A DNA stretch of 62,159 nucleotides from Dictyobacter arantiisoli (lineage in GTDB: Bacteria > Chloroflexota > Ktedonobacteria > Ktedonobacterales > Ktedonobacteraceae), in NCBI RefSeq assembly GCF_008326305.1, contig NZ_BIXY01000037.1:1-62159 (forward strand), in the 5' to 3' direction. The notes under the pieces were generated by a model. That model was not told the DNA's origin. It did no database searches and worked only from the letters and a program-made list of their open reading frames with translations. Both the position numbers and the translations under genes were made by a program. Shown here one piece after another: positions 4,488 to 31,437 of the stretch (within the stretch, counting starts at the first letter, position 1; every line of letters starts with the position of its first letter).

Positions 4488-5562
4488 CAGGTAGGCCAAA
4501 AAACGCAGCATAGCGCTGCGCCGCTGTGGTATAGGCATGCATTTCAGCATCATTCAAGGAAGCAAAGAGGCTCAGGACAATATCAATGCGATCTTTTTTT
4601 AGCGTACGCCTCCAGATGCCAACCACGCGACCATCAATGATGAGGGTATTGTTAAAAAGGACATTGCCACGCGAATCCAATTTTTCAGTATCGGCCGCAT
4701 CAAAGATAGCACTACGGTCTGTATAGCCAACAATATATTCATCATAATTCGGTAGCAGGTAAGCTGCCATCGAATTAGCTTCCGGGGATACGATAGAGGC
4801 AGTAGGCGTGGCAAGCCAATAGGTCTGACCATCAACGGTCTCATGGATAAGCTGAGATGAAACCATGGAGAGGCCCGCTCTGGCATCGGCTACAGTCAGG
4901 CCAGACCACCAGACAAAATCCTGCACGGTCGCCGGTCCATGGCCGGTAAAATAGCGTAGAACGAGTTCGGCCAGCGCTTCAGCATGTCTCAGGGGTTTAG
5001 TCGCGGGTACCCGCTCATCCAGCAAGGCATAGGTAAATTGTTTGCCACGTCTTGCGCCACTACACACAATGCCAGCCAACTCGGCCCGCATCATGATAGC
5101 AGTGAAGCGCTGTACCGCATCAGTAGCAATGCCAGCCTGTTGGAGTACAGAGACGAGTTCTGGACGTGTCAACTGCCGACCACCCTGCAAAGCTTTTATC
5201 AGCACAGCATTACTCTGCTTGAAGATAACTTCATCCAATTCAAGTTTCCGATACCAATAGGCATTGGCAGCATTGACACGCGGGGCTGTCAATGCAAGCA
5301 ACCAGCGAATATCTGCAGGCAAAACAAAATGCCAGGTAGGGCGCATCAGATGAGTTCGAAGAAGAGTACCAGCGGTAAAGGCCTGCTCGATAACATCATC
5401 CGTAGCATCCGGCAAACGCAGGCCGAGTGCCCACTTGGCGGCCGCATAATCCTGCGCCTGCACAGCACCCAGCCACTGCACCACATCCTCAGGTTTTGCC
5501 AATGAAGTCCGCGCAATATGCTGATTGACAAGCCGTTGCCGCACTAGCTCCGAAATCATCAT
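4420..5562 (-). CDS. Winged-helix DNA-binding domain protein (AlkZ/YcaQ-like)
   Basis: About 380 aa of the HTH_42 superfamily, which includes the DNA glycosylases AlkZ and YcaQ. Seen: the N-terminal QRLVNQHI, VVQWLGAVQAQDY and RTHLMRPTWHFVLPADIRWLL, plus the late LLPNYDEYIVGYTDRS and NTLIIDGRVVGIWRRT motifs. AGGAAAGG precedes the start (MM). The last 22 or so residues (..HHGQQSRVPFFRPNG) are read from the antisense of the E1 beta remnant, which overlaps by 68 bases. The native C-terminus was therefore probably replaced when the junction formed. DNA repair or DNA binding is a family inference. Confidence 0.85.
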   Translation of the reverse strand: MMISELVRQRLVNQHIARTSLAKPEDVVQWLGAVQAQDYAAAKWALGLRLPDATDDVIEQAFTAGTLLRTHLMRPTWHFVLPADIRWLLALTAPRVNAANAYWYRKLELDEVIFKQSNAVLIKALQGGRQLTRPELVSVLQQAGIATDAVQRFTAIMMRAELAGIVCSGARRGKQFTYALLDERVPATKPLRHAEALAELVLRYFTGHGPATVQDFVWWSGLTVADARAGLSMVSSQLIHETVDGQTYWLATPTASIVSPEANSMAAYLLPNYDEYIVGYTDRSAIFDAADTEKLDSRGNVLFNNTLIIDGRVVGIWRRTLKKDRIDIVLSLFASLNDAEMHAYTTAAQRYAAFFGLPVNTKFQMHHGQQSRVPFFRPNG

Positions 5563-5612
5563 ACATTCATCCTTTCCTTAAACAAATCATCTCTTAGCAC
5601 CGGAGGGCCGCA

Positions 5613-5640
5613 GTGAGACTCGTCACGGGTTGGGTCTCAC
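5613..5640. terminator. Weak hairpin after the DHA2 exporter gene
   Basis: GTGAGAC / GTCTCAC inverted repeat with a 14-nt loop in the 130-bp gap between the exporter end and the winged-helix start. There is no clear T-run, so the terminator role is uncertain. Confidence 0.3.
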
Positions 5641-5693
5641 CACGGTGAAAGCATTTGGGGTACGGTTCGGTTCCTCTTTGATCTTGAAGCACT

Positions 5694-7259
5694 CTAAATG
5701 AGGGCTTCTTCGGGGGTTGGAACCACGTTCTCCGAAGCAACTGTCCGCTGTTCCTGCTTGAGAGTTGTATCTTTCAAGAAGAAGGTGGCGATCAGGGCGA
5801 TGATGGAAAAAACTAATACAACGATAAAGCCATGCTGAAGCGCGGAGGATAACGCTGCTTTGGAGACCACGGTGGTTGGCAAATGGCTCATCAGATCACC
5901 AGAGGTGGAACTGCTCACGACGGTTCCCACAATCGCGATACCCAGCGACGCACCCAGTTGTCCCAGATAGCGCAAGCCGGCAGTGCCAATACCCAGACGT
6001 TCAGCAGGCAGGGCATTTTGAACTACCAGCATAGGCAAAGAGAAGAAGGGACCAATACCAATGCCAGTCAGGATGAGAATCGCGATGGCAAGTGCGACTC
6101 CAGTCGCTGGATTCATAAATGTGATCAGGAATACGCCGATACTCATAAGCAATGCCGCGATAATGCCAACGATACGATAGCGATTGAGCTTACCAATCAT
6201 CTGGGTGCTCAGGATAGCCCCTATTACCATGCTCACTGAGAAAGGGGTCATGACCAGACCTGCATTAGTGGGCGAGACAGCCAGCACGCCCTGGAAGAAG
6301 AGTGGCAAATAGAGCGCCAGACCAAGTAATACCATATTTTGTAACAATGAGAGCAACGCACTGGTGCTAAAGATGGGATCGCGAAAGAGGTCCAATGGTA
6401 AAATTGGCTCATGGGCTTTCCGTTCGGTGCTAATGAACAAGACGAACAAGAGAATGCTCGCAGCGAGAATGCTAAGTACCTGCGGAGAAACCCAGGCTGA
6501 AGCTTGCTCCCCGCCCCAGGTTAATCCCAACATCAGGCAGATAGTTGCCGCGGCACAAAGCAGAGCGCCCAGAAAATCAATACTACGCAATGACTGCCAG
6601 CCGTTCCAGCCGCTGGTGCGCACCGAGAGGTTAGCAGGCAGGAAGATTAACAGAGACGCGACTGCAATCAAGCCAATGGGCAGGTTGATATAAAAGACCC
6701 AGCGCCAGCGTGTGGCATCAGTGATGAGATTTCCTAACAGTGGCCCATGCTCAGCAAACCAACCACCAATCGTGGGACCAAACAGATTAGAAACGCCATA
6801 GACCAGGCCAAAGAGGCCGCTCCATTTCGCCCTCTGCTCCGGCGGGAAAAGATCGGCCATAATGGTGCCGATTAAAGCCATACCAATACCCGATCCCAGT
6901 CCCTGTACGGCGCGGAAGAGAATCAGTTGATTCATGCTCTGGGATGCGCCCGCCAGCATGGAACCCAGCAGGAATAGCGTAGTGCCAATGAGCAAAAACC
7001 ATTTACGACCAAATTGATCCGAGAGTTTACCCACAATCGGTATCATTGTCATGCTAGCCAGAATATAGGCTGTCACAACCCAACTATAGCGATCCAGACC
7101 GTGCAATTCTGCAATGATGCGCGGCATGGCAGTACCAACAATCGTCTGGTCGAGCGCTTCTAAGAAGAGTGTCAGCATCAGGGCGATCATCACAGAGATG
7201 AGCGCAAAGCCGCGCAGACGCGGCAAGCTGTGGATTTCAGCAGTGGCAGAATGAGACAT
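5694..7259 (-). CDS. MFS drug exporter, DHA2 (EmrB/QacA) family
   Basis: A 521-aa integral membrane proton antiporter with about 14 membrane segments. Seen: LDQTIVGTAMPRI in the first segment (the Asp typical of DHA2 exporters), LSDQFGRKWF (motif A), FRAVQGLGSGIGMALIGTIM and GPTIGGWFAEH (motif C region). AGAGGAAA precedes the ATG. Divergently transcribed from a WYL-domain regulator across about 110 bp, which probably controls it. Likely exports toxic organic compounds; the substrate is not predictable. Confidence 0.92.
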   Translation of the reverse strand: MSHSATAEIHSLPRLRGFALISVMIALMLTLFLEALDQTIVGTAMPRIIAELHGLDRYSWVVTAYILASMTMIPIVGKLSDQFGRKWFLLIGTTLFLLGSMLAGASQSMNQLILFRAVQGLGSGIGMALIGTIMADLFPPEQRAKWSGLFGLVYGVSNLFGPTIGGWFAEHGPLLGNLITDATRWRWVFYINLPIGLIAVASLLIFLPANLSVRTSGWNGWQSLRSIDFLGALLCAAATICLMLGLTWGGEQASAWVSPQVLSILAASILLFVLFISTERKAHEPILPLDLFRDPIFSTSALLSLLQNMVLLGLALYLPLFFQGVLAVSPTNAGLVMTPFSVSMVIGAILSTQMIGKLNRYRIVGIIAALLMSIGVFLITFMNPATGVALAIAILILTGIGIGPFFSLPMLVVQNALPAERLGIGTAGLRYLGQLGASLGIAIVGTVVSSSTSGDLMSHLPTTVVSKAALSSALQHGFIVVLVFSIIALIATFFLKDTTLKQEQRTVASENVVPTPEEALI

Positions 7260-27483: not shown

Positions 27484-27872
27484 GGGTTTGAGGAAGCCGT
27501 AAGCCGAATTCTGTACCCATCCAGGCTTACGCCGGGATAGGCGGTAATCATCTATCTAGGACGATAGTTGCCTATCGCCTCAAGCAACCAACCCGAAGGT
27601 TAACAGACGAGCAGCCCGCCAGGTCAAAGACCTGTCCCTTCTGTTTAGTCTTGCTCCAGATGGGGTTTGCACAGCCAACCAGTCACCTGGTTGCTGGTGA
27701 GCTCTTACCTCACCATTTCGCCCTTACCTGAGTTTGCACTCAGGCGGTATGTTTCTGTTGCACTTTCCTTGAGGTCACCCTCACTGGCCGTTAACCAGCA
27801 TCTTCGCTCTATGGAGTTCGGACTTTCCTCGGACCCCTAAGAGGACCGCAATTACCAGTCTTCCTCAAACCC
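27484..27872 (-). ncRNA. rnpB: RNase P RNA, type A
   Basis: Catalytic RNA of the tRNA 5'-processing enzyme. Read on the minus strand: GAGGAAAGTCCGAACTCC near the start (usual GAGGAAAGTCCGGGCTCC), AAGGAAAGTGCAACAGAAA, GGTAAGGGCGAAATGGTGAG, GTAAGAGCTCACCA, and the 3' ACAGAATTCGGCTTAC. The ends pair as stem P1 (GGGTTTGAGGAAG with CTTCCTCAAACCC), which sets the limits. Length about 389 nt. Confidence 0.96.
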
Positions 27873-28332: not shown

Positions 28333-28524
28333 CTATGATACTCATCTTTATCTGTTTGGGCACGAATAGAGAGCTTCAGGGATAGGATTTGTACGCGTAT
28401 CTCACCATGGTGCACGATGTTCGTACGACTCCACCGTAGAACGGTGGCGGCTACTTTGGTTCTCGGCTCTTACTCGAATGCGTTGGAAAGTGTTCAGACT
28501 TGACCTCTCTGGTAAACTCAAGCT

Positions 28525-28706
28525 ATGACACACGAGGAAGAAATCGCTCATCTTCGAGAAGAAAACCAGGCGCTACGAGAAGCTCTCAGCCAGGTACTGA
28601 CCCGCATCGAGGAGCTGGAAAAGCAGAAGACACCTCCCCTGCGTTTGTCAAAGCAAACGTGAAAAAGCCAGGGGTCGTCTTTTTTGAAGAAAAGCTTTCT
28701 TTGTAG
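28525..28706 (+). pseudogene. IS66-type transposase, N-terminal fragment with frameshift
   Basis: Starts MTHEEEIAHLREENQALREA, continues as a short coiled coil (LTRIEELEKQKTPP), typical of the N-terminus of IS66 transposases. At the Pro run a one-base loss shifts the frame. The original frame ends at 28662, while the next frame continues PAFVKANVKKP, the expected continuation, until 28706. The zinc finger and DDE domain are absent. Non-functional remnant inside the mobile element. Confidence 0.75.
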
Positions 28707-28729
28707 CTTGAAAAAGGGAAGAATCTGTT

Positions 28730-29332
28730 ATGGCAAATCAAGTGTTCTTGGTGGTCAATGATTCTGCGAATCCCATCCTCGATGAAATCGATAAGAACGA
28801 AAAAGCTTTATTGGCATGTAATTATTCCATCCCTTTATTTTGGTTTACTCTGTACTCACCCAACGATGTGTTTTTGATGGATGTGGAGATGGATGATGCT
28901 CCCATAGAGCAAGTGCCTACTCTCGTCGTCGACTTGCCAACAGGGATAGAGAGGGCTGAGGAAAGAGCAAACAACGTCTTTCACATCCTTCCTCATTCTT
29001 ATACGGATCTCTATCAGCAATGGCTTCGTTTCCTGAAAGGTCTTGCTCCCCACCCAGCTCTTCCCCCGAAATATGTGCATATCGATCTGACCGAATTGTG
29101 GATGATGTCTGATGACACTGAACAATTTACAAAGGATTTACGAATGGCCGTGTCAGCAGTTGACAGAACAGACCGTGCTTTGTGGGATGTGTTGATCGAA
29201 GAGTTCGTGGGAATTGTGATGCGGTCTGGGTTCTTTTCGAAAGAGAAAAAAATCACGTATCCAAAGACGGTCGATGGGATTCAATCACTCCTGACGGGTT
29301 ACGACTGGTACGGAACATTCAGAGAGAAGTAA
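28730..29332 (+). CDS. Cargo gene of the IS66-type element, unknown protein
   Basis: 200 aa, soluble, acidic; AAGGGAAG lies about 10 bases before the ATG. No family recognised. It begins MANQVFLVVNDSANPILDEI, with mixed alpha/beta character; no catalytic motif, signal peptide or membrane segment is seen. It is an intact frame inside an element that kept its ends and lost its transposase. Such passenger genes sometimes give the host a benefit or regulate the element, but nothing here says which. Confidence 0.7.
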   Translation: MANQVFLVVNDSANPILDEIDKNEKALLACNYSIPLFWFTLYSPNDVFLMDVEMDDAPIEQVPTLVVDLPTGIERAEERANNVFHILPHSYTDLYQQWLRFLKGLAPHPALPPKYVHIDLTELWMMSDDTEQFTKDLRMAVSAVDRTDRALWDVLIEEFVGIVMRSGFFSKEKKITYPKTVDGIQSLLTGYDWYGTFREK

Positions 29333-29615
29333 GAGGGTTCTGTTCGTAAGATCATGCGGAGTCGTCCATGGCAGGGTTCCAAGCGGAATACTTCAAAAAT
29401 ACGACGCTGCATTTTGTCATGGACATCCAACCAAACCCATTAAGCTAAGTCTGAACAGTTACATGCGTTGGGCCTGGTGTACAAAGAGGGATGTTTGGTA
29501 CATGTATTCGCACATTCAGCATTGAGAATGCCAAAAGTCCAATAAGTATACCAGTAAAGTTATCGAATACGGTCTATTCGCGTCTGATACAGCCGGATAT
29601 TGCTATACAGTAGCG

Positions 29616-29644
29616 TTGCAGTTCCCCCCAAAACGCGCTACAAT
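29616..29644 (+). promoter_or_regulatory. Putative promoter of selD-rnc
   Basis: TTGCAG at 29616-29621, a 17-base spacer and TACAAT at 29639-29644, about 49 bases before the selD ATG. Confidence 0.5.
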
Positions 29645-29692
29645 GACGGCTACAATAAAAACTGCTAGAGACCGATAGAAGGTTTTTAAACG

Positions 29693-30751
29693 ATGGATAC
29701 AGATCGACAGATTCGCTTGACTTCCTTAGCCAGTTGCGCCGGTTGCGCCGCAAAAATGGGCGCGGGGACATTGGCGCAAGTTTTACAGCCGCTTAAGCAG
29801 CGTCTGGCTCTTCCCAATTTACTGGTGGGCCTGGATGAAATCGATGATGCAGCGGTCTATCGCGTGAATGATCAGCAAGCGATTATCAGTACCGCTGATT
29901 TCTTTCCTCCTGTGGTTGATGATCCTTATGCTTTTGGATCTATTGCTGCAGCCAATGCGGTAAGCGATGTGTATGCCATGGGCGGTCAGGTGCTAATCGC
30001 GCTTAATCTTGTGGCCTGGCCTGAAGATCTGGATACGAGCCTCCTGGGTGAGATCTTTCGTGGCGGGATGGACATCATGTCACAGGCAGGTGGTATCATA
30101 GCAGGGGGACATACAATTATGGACAGCGAGCCAAAATATGGGCTGGCTGTGACAGGTATGGTGCATCCCGATCATATTCTTACCAAGGGTGGCGCACGTG
30201 CTGGCGATATGCTGATCCTCAGTAAACCATTGGGGACCGGTCTAATTACAACCGCCTTGAAACGCGAACTGGTGGCAGATGAGGATCTACAGGCCGCGAT
30301 TGCTTCGATGACGCGCTTGAACCGCAGAGCCAGCGAAGCACTGGTACAGGCAGGCGCAGGCGTGCACGCGGCTACTGATGTAACTGGCTTTGGCCTGCTC
30401 GGGCATGCCTGGGAGATGGCACTGCAAAGCCACACGAATATGCGTTTCCGCACAGCCTCGTTGCCTCTGCTTCCAAATGTCCAGCGTTATGCCGAATTGG
30501 GCTGCGTTCCGGGCGGCTCGCTACGCAATCAACATCACGTACAGAAACATGTACAGTTTGACACAAAACTCGCTGAGTATGAGCGTATAATACTCTGGGA
30601 CCCACAAACATCGGGTGGCCTTTTATCAGCCATTGATCCAGCCATCTGGTCTTCACTGGTAGCACAGAACCCGGACGTACAGTTCTGGCATATCGGAGAT
30701 GTGACCGAACAGGTTCCCGATGAGGCCAACGTTACTTTAGAGGTATATTAA
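29693..30751 (+). CDS. selD: Selenide, water dikinase (selenophosphate synthase)
   Basis: 352 aa. Makes selenophosphate from selenide and ATP for selenocysteine or selenouridine. Seen: LASCAGCAAKMG (Cys18 and Lys21 match the catalytic Cys and Lys), LLVGLDEIDDAAVY, IISTADFFPPVVDDPYAFG, NAVSDVYAMGG, IIAGGHTIMDSEPKYGLAVT and GVHAATDVTGFGLLGHAWEM. The active residue is Cys, not selenocysteine. GAAGG precedes the ATG. It shares one base with rnc. No selA, selB or tRNA-Sec is in the window, so the final use is open. Confidence 0.95.
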   Translation: MDTDRQIRLTSLASCAGCAAKMGAGTLAQVLQPLKQRLALPNLLVGLDEIDDAAVYRVNDQQAIISTADFFPPVVDDPYAFGSIAAANAVSDVYAMGGQVLIALNLVAWPEDLDTSLLGEIFRGGMDIMSQAGGIIAGGHTIMDSEPKYGLAVTGMVHPDHILTKGGARAGDMLILSKPLGTGLITTALKRELVADEDLQAAIASMTRLNRRASEALVQAGAGVHAATDVTGFGLLGHAWEMALQSHTNMRFRTASLPLLPNVQRYAELGCVPGGSLRNQHHVQKHVQFDTKLAEYERIILWDPQTSGGLLSAIDPAIWSSLVAQNPDVQFWHIGDVTEQVPDEANVTLEVY

Positions 30752-31437
30752 TGCACGATAATTTAGAAGAGATTTTAGGGGTTACATTTCAGAACCCACA
30801 ATTCTTAAAACTGGCTTTGACCCATCGCTCATACATTTACGAGACTCCTGGAGTCGGCTTGAGCTCTAACGAGCGCCTGGAATTTCTAGGTGACTCGATC
30901 CTCGCGTTGATTAGTGCGGACTTTCTCTATCGCACCTTTCCAACACTCACTGAGGGCGAGTTGACCGATGTGCGGGCAGTCCTGGTACGAACTGAGACCC
31001 TGGCAAATTTCGCACGCGAGATCAATCTGGGACAATTTCTGTTGATGGGCAAAGGCGAACAAAATACCGGCGGCGGACAACGCGTACAGGCTTCGGCCTT
31101 TGAGGCTATTCTGGGCGCAATCTATCTGGATCAAGGTCTGGAGGCAACACGCCAGTTCTTGTTGCCACGGCTGGAGCCACTGGCACAGACCATTGTGACC
31201 AAACGGCTGTTTAAGGATAATAAGTCGCTCTTCCAGGAGCTGGCGCAGGCCCATGCAGGGATTACGCCCGCTTATCGTCTCGTCGGACAAGAAGGTCCTT
31301 CGCATAATCGCGAATTCACGGTCGAGGTTATGCTTGGTGAACAGGTGGCCGGACGAGGTCAGGGACGCAATAAGCAAACAGCGGAACAAGAGGCCGCGCG
31401 TAGCGCTATCGCCAGCCAGGGCTGGCAGATTTCTTGA
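30751..31437 (+). CDS. rnc: Ribonuclease III
   Basis: 228 aa. Cuts double-stranded RNA in rRNA and mRNA processing. N-terminal catalytic domain: LALTHRSYIYE, SNERLEFLGDSILALISADF (signature), ASAFEAILGAIYLDQGLEAT. C-terminal dsRNA-binding domain from about residue 158: KSLFQELAQAHAGITPAYRL, FTVEVMLGEQVAGRGQGRNK and KQTAEQEAARSAI. The ATG overlaps the selD stop (TAATG), so translation is likely coupled. Confidence 0.96.
   Translation: MHDNLEEILGVTFQNPQFLKLALTHRSYIYETPGVGLSSNERLEFLGDSILALISADFLYRTFPTLTEGELTDVRAVLVRTETLANFAREINLGQFLLMGKGEQNTGGGQRVQASAFEAILGAIYLDQGLEATRQFLLPRLEPLAQTIVTKRLFKDNKSLFQELAQAHAGITPAYRLVGQEGPSHNREFTVEVMLGEQVAGRGQGRNKQTAEQEAARSAIASQGWQIS

Follow-up and report, generated by a model that had tools for sequence, protein, structure and literature searches.

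How does a gene come to lie between the ends of an insertion sequence (IS) that has lost its transposase, and can such a unit still move? Both questions are raised by a 977-bp unit of Dictyobacter arantiisoli, which occupies positions 28486-29462 of the window (the whole stretch of DNA that was analysed, 62,159 nucleotides of contig NZ_BIXY01000037.1). The unit is located between rnpB, which encodes the RNase P RNA (27485-27867, minus strand; RF00010, 286.6 bits), and a selD-like gene that is followed by rnc. Our preferred reading, to which we assign a probability of about 0.88, is that the unit derives by internal deletion from an IS66 element with a passenger gene, that this passenger originated with a nested MITE-like insertion, and that the unit is likely to be immobile now.

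The Unit Has IS66-Type Ends and an Exact Target Duplication

The IS66 family is marked by terminal repeats that start with GTAA, frequently with a variant at one end, and by an 8-bp target duplication. Both features are seen here, one of the ends being a variant. The left terminal inverted repeat GAAAGTGTTCAGACTT (28486-28501, plus strand) and the right one, whose reverse complement is GTAACTGTTCAGACTT (29447-29462, minus strand), match at 14/16 positions, and each is abutted by an exact copy of the 8-bp sequence ATGCGTTG (28478-28485 on the left, 29463-29470 on the right). GTAA ends are also given for IS66 elements in the literature (PMC12888890). The 62-kb window contains a single instance of an exact 8-bp repeat directly bordering inverted repeats of at least 14/16, and none was seen in 20 mononucleotide shuffles of the whole window. 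Together with the coordinates, this confirms the ends and duplication reported in a preliminary description of this DNA. The intact duplication records the insertion at this site of an element with these ends, and it fits a deletion before or after that event. Between the ends lies an intact gene for a 200-aa protein, its open reading frame confirmed at 28730-29332 (plus strand). With IS ends around a non-transposase gene and no transposase, the unit (28486-29462) has the build of a mobile insertion cassette.

A Full-Length Relative Is Present in Ktedonobacter sp. SOSP1-85

A protein search found the same gene, with a product 98% identical to that of the window, in a full-length element of Ktedonobacter sp. 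SOSP1-85 (NZ_BNJI01000001.1), which we refer to as the parent. The parent is 2,185 bp long (L035:4549-6733) and shares the 16-bp ends of the window unit, both of which are identical (L035:4549-4564 and L035:6718-6733). The right terminal repeat also occupies the IRR position in related IS66 elements. The parent encodes an intact TnpC of 456 aa (L035:4588-5958), which matches both the IS66 family transposase model NF033517 (257.8 bits, cut-off 180) and PF03050 (DDE_Tnp_IS66, E 4e-40). It is thus through the parent that the transposase is assigned to the IS66 family, the window retaining only its first codons. The accessory genes tnpA and tnpB of classic IS66 elements are absent, the parent holding TnpC and the passenger only. 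Since IS66 members with tnpC alone exist (ISBst12 type), this does not exclude IS66 membership. As a complete IS66 with an unrelated passenger the parent qualifies as a transporter IS, which the window copy does not.

The earlier view of the unit as an IS66-derived element with intact ends, a target duplication and a passenger gene but no transposase is therefore supported, now that the same 16-bp ends have been found on a full-length IS66 relative. The preliminary description had proposed to look for such relatives in the same genome; one was found in SOSP1-85, and the two IS66 elements of the D. arantiisoli genome have different ends. The flanks of the parent (L035:4501-4548 and 6734-6780) lack a target duplication of 8 bp (CTGAATTG vs GTCATCAC), and the parent borders therefore rest on the identity of the inverted repeats; one flank has probably been rearranged.

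The Transposase Gene Was Lost by an Internal Deletion

Compared with the parent, the window copy is missing 1,207 bp (parent 4739-5945). The breakpoint is at 28674|28675, the junction reads GCCAGGGGTCGTCTTTTTT, and the short repeat CAGGG is present at both edges of the deletion. All tnpC-derived DNA stops at 28674. When aligned to the 456-aa TnpC, the remnant (28525-28674, plus strand) comprises codons 1-38 in frame and is then shifted by one nucleotide, a C being missing from the run of C at 28636-28639. The preserved stretch of transposase is thus shorter than first described, with ~38 codons in frame before the frameshift rather than the first 60 or so.

The Passenger Gene Came on a Nested MITE-Like Insertion

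In the parent, the passenger gene is part of a second, complete unit of 772 bp (L035:5925-6696) that sits at the last codons of tnpC. This nested unit starts with TGTCAATGACAACATGCAGGGTCGTC and ends with an inverted copy of it. Its inverted repeats, of the type TGTCNATGACAA... (TGTC...), give a score of 24.5 when aligned over ~36 bp, the maximum in 2,000 shuffles being 12.5, and are equal at 22/25 outer positions. They are flanked by the target duplication CCCAACC/TCCAACC, which agrees at 6/7 positions with one mismatch. The nested unit, with inverted terminal repeats, a target duplication and no transposase, is MITE-like. What remains of it in the window extends from 28675 to 29425 (plus strand) and includes the passenger gene. 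By comparison with the parent unit, its left inverted repeat was truncated by the deletion, while the right one, TGTCCATGACAAAATGCAGCGTCGTATTTTTGAAG when read from the outer end (29391-29425, minus strand), is complete.

A site without the insert is found in an IS66 relative in genome G025, which reads ...CTTACCCAACCAAACTCGTTAGGCTAAGTCTGAACAATTAC where the parent reads ...CTCACCCAACC, then the 772 bp, then TCCAACCAAACCCATTAAGCTAAGTCTGAACAGTTAC. The nested insertion swaps the last few TnpC residues for ~10 that are encoded by the inverted repeat, without touching the DDE domain. Four related IS66 elements, whose TnpC proteins are 48-78% identical to that of the parent, lack the 200-aa gene, and their right end directly follows tnpC. 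The Ktedonobacteria elements L046, L047 and L048 are alike in TnpC (within the same 48-78% range) and in the type of right end, but have no passenger and carry the IRR directly after tnpC. Taken with the nested repeats and their duplication, these relatives lead us to conclude that the passenger came on a separate nested insertion. The preliminary description was right that an IS66-type element carries a passenger gene; a simple pick-up by IS66 does not stand, the nested unit having inverted repeats of its own.

Ends similar to the nested ones bound 133-bp units in two Ktedonobacter genomes (L070:1393-1525, seen in L070/L096, and L071:1501-1633, seen in L071/L097). These units have TGTA..TACA ends, inverted repeats of the TGTnnATgACAAaAT type and an internal second copy of the GTGTCGTAT motif, and one of them bears an exact 6-bp duplication, CCCGAG. 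They are equal to the nested right end at 23-24/30 positions, but are gene-less and measure 133 bp instead of 772. Both resemble members of a single MITE family. A search for end-like matches found no autonomous partner or transposase for the nested ends. A single nested-type end is present in genome G010; the short, decayed reading frame after it had no plasmid match. It is conceivable, though doubtful, that Ktedonobacteria harbor a family of MITE-like cassettes with single-gene cargo that would be moved by some transposase and would spread by landing harmlessly in the 3' ends of IS transposase genes.

The Passenger Encodes a 200-aa Protein with One Close Relative

Neither Pfam, NCBIfam, PADLOC, PHROGs nor PDB returned a useful match for the 200-aa protein, and searches of plasmids, phages and viral contigs yielded no relative. 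A search of 400 genomes of the phylum gave chance-level matches only, SOSP1-85 apart. The search for the protein in other elements, which the preliminary description had proposed, thus returned one close relative, the 98% identical protein inside the SOSP1-85 IS66 element. Structure prediction from the two sequences gave a poor model, with a mean pLDDT of 39. The two gene copies differ by six synonymous and four nonsynonymous codon changes, all of them transitions (pN/pS 0.18). This synonymous bias has P = 0.08 in a transition-aware simulation, which is weak evidence at best that the protein is maintained. A simple scan revealed no sigma-70-like promoter. Our working view is that its product is a putative expressed protein, hitchhiking as a passenger. 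On another contig of SOSP1-85 (L004:1501-1593, minus strand), a segment is 48% identical over 31 C-terminal residues of the 200-aa protein, and looks like the remnant of a second related gene.

Alternative Origins and Mobility in the Host

Two other origins of the gene have to be weighed against the nested insertion. It could be a regular functional part of the IS66 lineage, e.g., a regulator of transposition, and no passenger at all. Such a role would agree with its location within the element in each of the two known copies and with the mild synonymous bias (6 vs 4), but that bias has a P value of 0.08, the relatives with 48-78% identical TnpC do without the gene, and the gene is enclosed by inverted repeats of its own and a duplication. 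We therefore regard this explanation as very improbable. Alternatively, the 36-bp repeats might be a chance or regulatory pair, and IS66 might have taken up the gene by transposing past a distant IRR. Although no transposase was found for the nested repeats and their duplication is 6/7 only, their score far above the shuffles, the complete 133-bp units bounded by similar ends (one with its exact CCCGAG duplication) and the relative with a site free of the insert make this unlikely.

The nested origin of the passenger also bears on an account in which the unit is an active non-autonomous IS66 cassette, moved in trans in its host and carrying a directly captured gene. Its intact ends and exact target duplication are compatible with this, as is the presence in the host of two other, complete-looking IS66 elements of another subgroup, L100 (G000:C1:170300-174500) and L101 (G000:C151:3500-7228), with 8-bp AT-rich duplications (AAAATTTA and AAATATTA) and GTAACT-type ends (GTAACTACTTAGGTCT and GTAACTATTCAGGTCA). 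Yet the transposases of these elements are only 27% and 31% identical to the cognate TnpC, their ends differ, the best of them (GTAACTATTCAGGTCA) being equal to the window right end at 11/16 positions, and nested repeats of its own enclose the gene. No close or cognate TnpC was detected in the host genome assembly (G000), which is 97.4% complete in 256 contigs, so that a copy may have been missed. The unit is present once in the host genome, and this is the single known copy of the deleted form. There is consequently no evidence of movement for the deleted form itself, and the unit may have been deleted before moving or have moved and then been deleted. Mobilization in trans, which the preliminary description thought possible, is thus not supported for this host, and we consider the account as a whole quite improbable. 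That the unit is moved in trans in the host today is unlikely. Most likely, in keeping with the preferred reading of an internal-deletion derivative, it is now immobile, its passenger being resident beside a housekeeping locus.

Proposed History and Relation to Known Systems

The copies of the element in the two genera are 98% identical, whereas selD is only ~72% identical even within the genus of the window, from which we infer horizontal movement. The history that we propose starts, as the comparisons show, with a 772-bp non-autonomous TGTC... element bearing the 200-aa gene, which entered the last codons of an IS66 tnpC, altered only the C terminus of TnpC and produced a 2,185-bp transporter IS. 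Given the 98% identity, this composite may then have moved between genera of Ktedonobacteria and landed in the interval that separates rnpB from the selD-like and rnc genes, creating the 8-bp duplication ATGCGTTG. Before or after that transfer, the 1,207 bp between two CAGGG repeats were lost together with most of tnpC, and the loss of one nucleotide broke the remaining frame, leaving 977 bp. The resulting build is that of a mobile insertion cassette dependent on a transposase from elsewhere.

Passenger-carrying IS66 elements and transposase-less IS are already established, the nested origin of the passenger being the one less common feature. Of the 25 ISfinder IS66 elements from Pseudomonas, 7 have a passenger gene (PMC12888890), and IS derivatives that lack a transposase go by the names MITE and mobile insertion cassette (PMC3129680, the ISsaga paper). 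The tIS66 elements, such as Pseudomonas ISPa75 with fosZ (PMC12888890), are alike in their IS66 ends and transposase and in having an unrelated gene between tnpC and IRR. ISPa75 differs in having tnpA, tnpB and tnpC, whereas here there is a single TnpC open reading frame, the passenger is nested, and the transposase is deleted in the window copy. Mobile insertion cassettes and MITEs (PMC3129680) likewise combine IS ends with the lack of a transposase, and in the present case the ends enclose a passenger gene; the window unit differs in that no cognate transposase was found in its genome and in being present in one copy. Together, the two elements document almost step by step how an IS may come to carry a passenger, from a MITE-like landing through spread between genera to decay via deletion between short repeats. 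The example, though small, cleanly illustrates a process that is usually assumed, and its biological consequence is modest.

Genomic Surroundings of the Unit

DNA around rnpB is 85-88% identical in genomes of the same genus. The intergenic region that holds the unit has no conserved counterpart in these genomes, so that the exact pre-insertion site of the outer element is not seen there. In the window, rnc is directly preceded by a selD-like gene with an AIRS domain (29693-31437). In genomes G003 and G004, the conserved segment that lies upstream in the window (29562-29685) adjoins rnc instead, and the selD relatives are on another contig. Some 20 bp upstream of the IS insertion lies a REP-like repeat (28399-28464) with the palindrome CCACCGTAGAACGGTGG (CCACCGT-AGA-ACGGTGG), which has ~20 matches in the host genome, mostly of 40-66 bp and with 75-98% identity.
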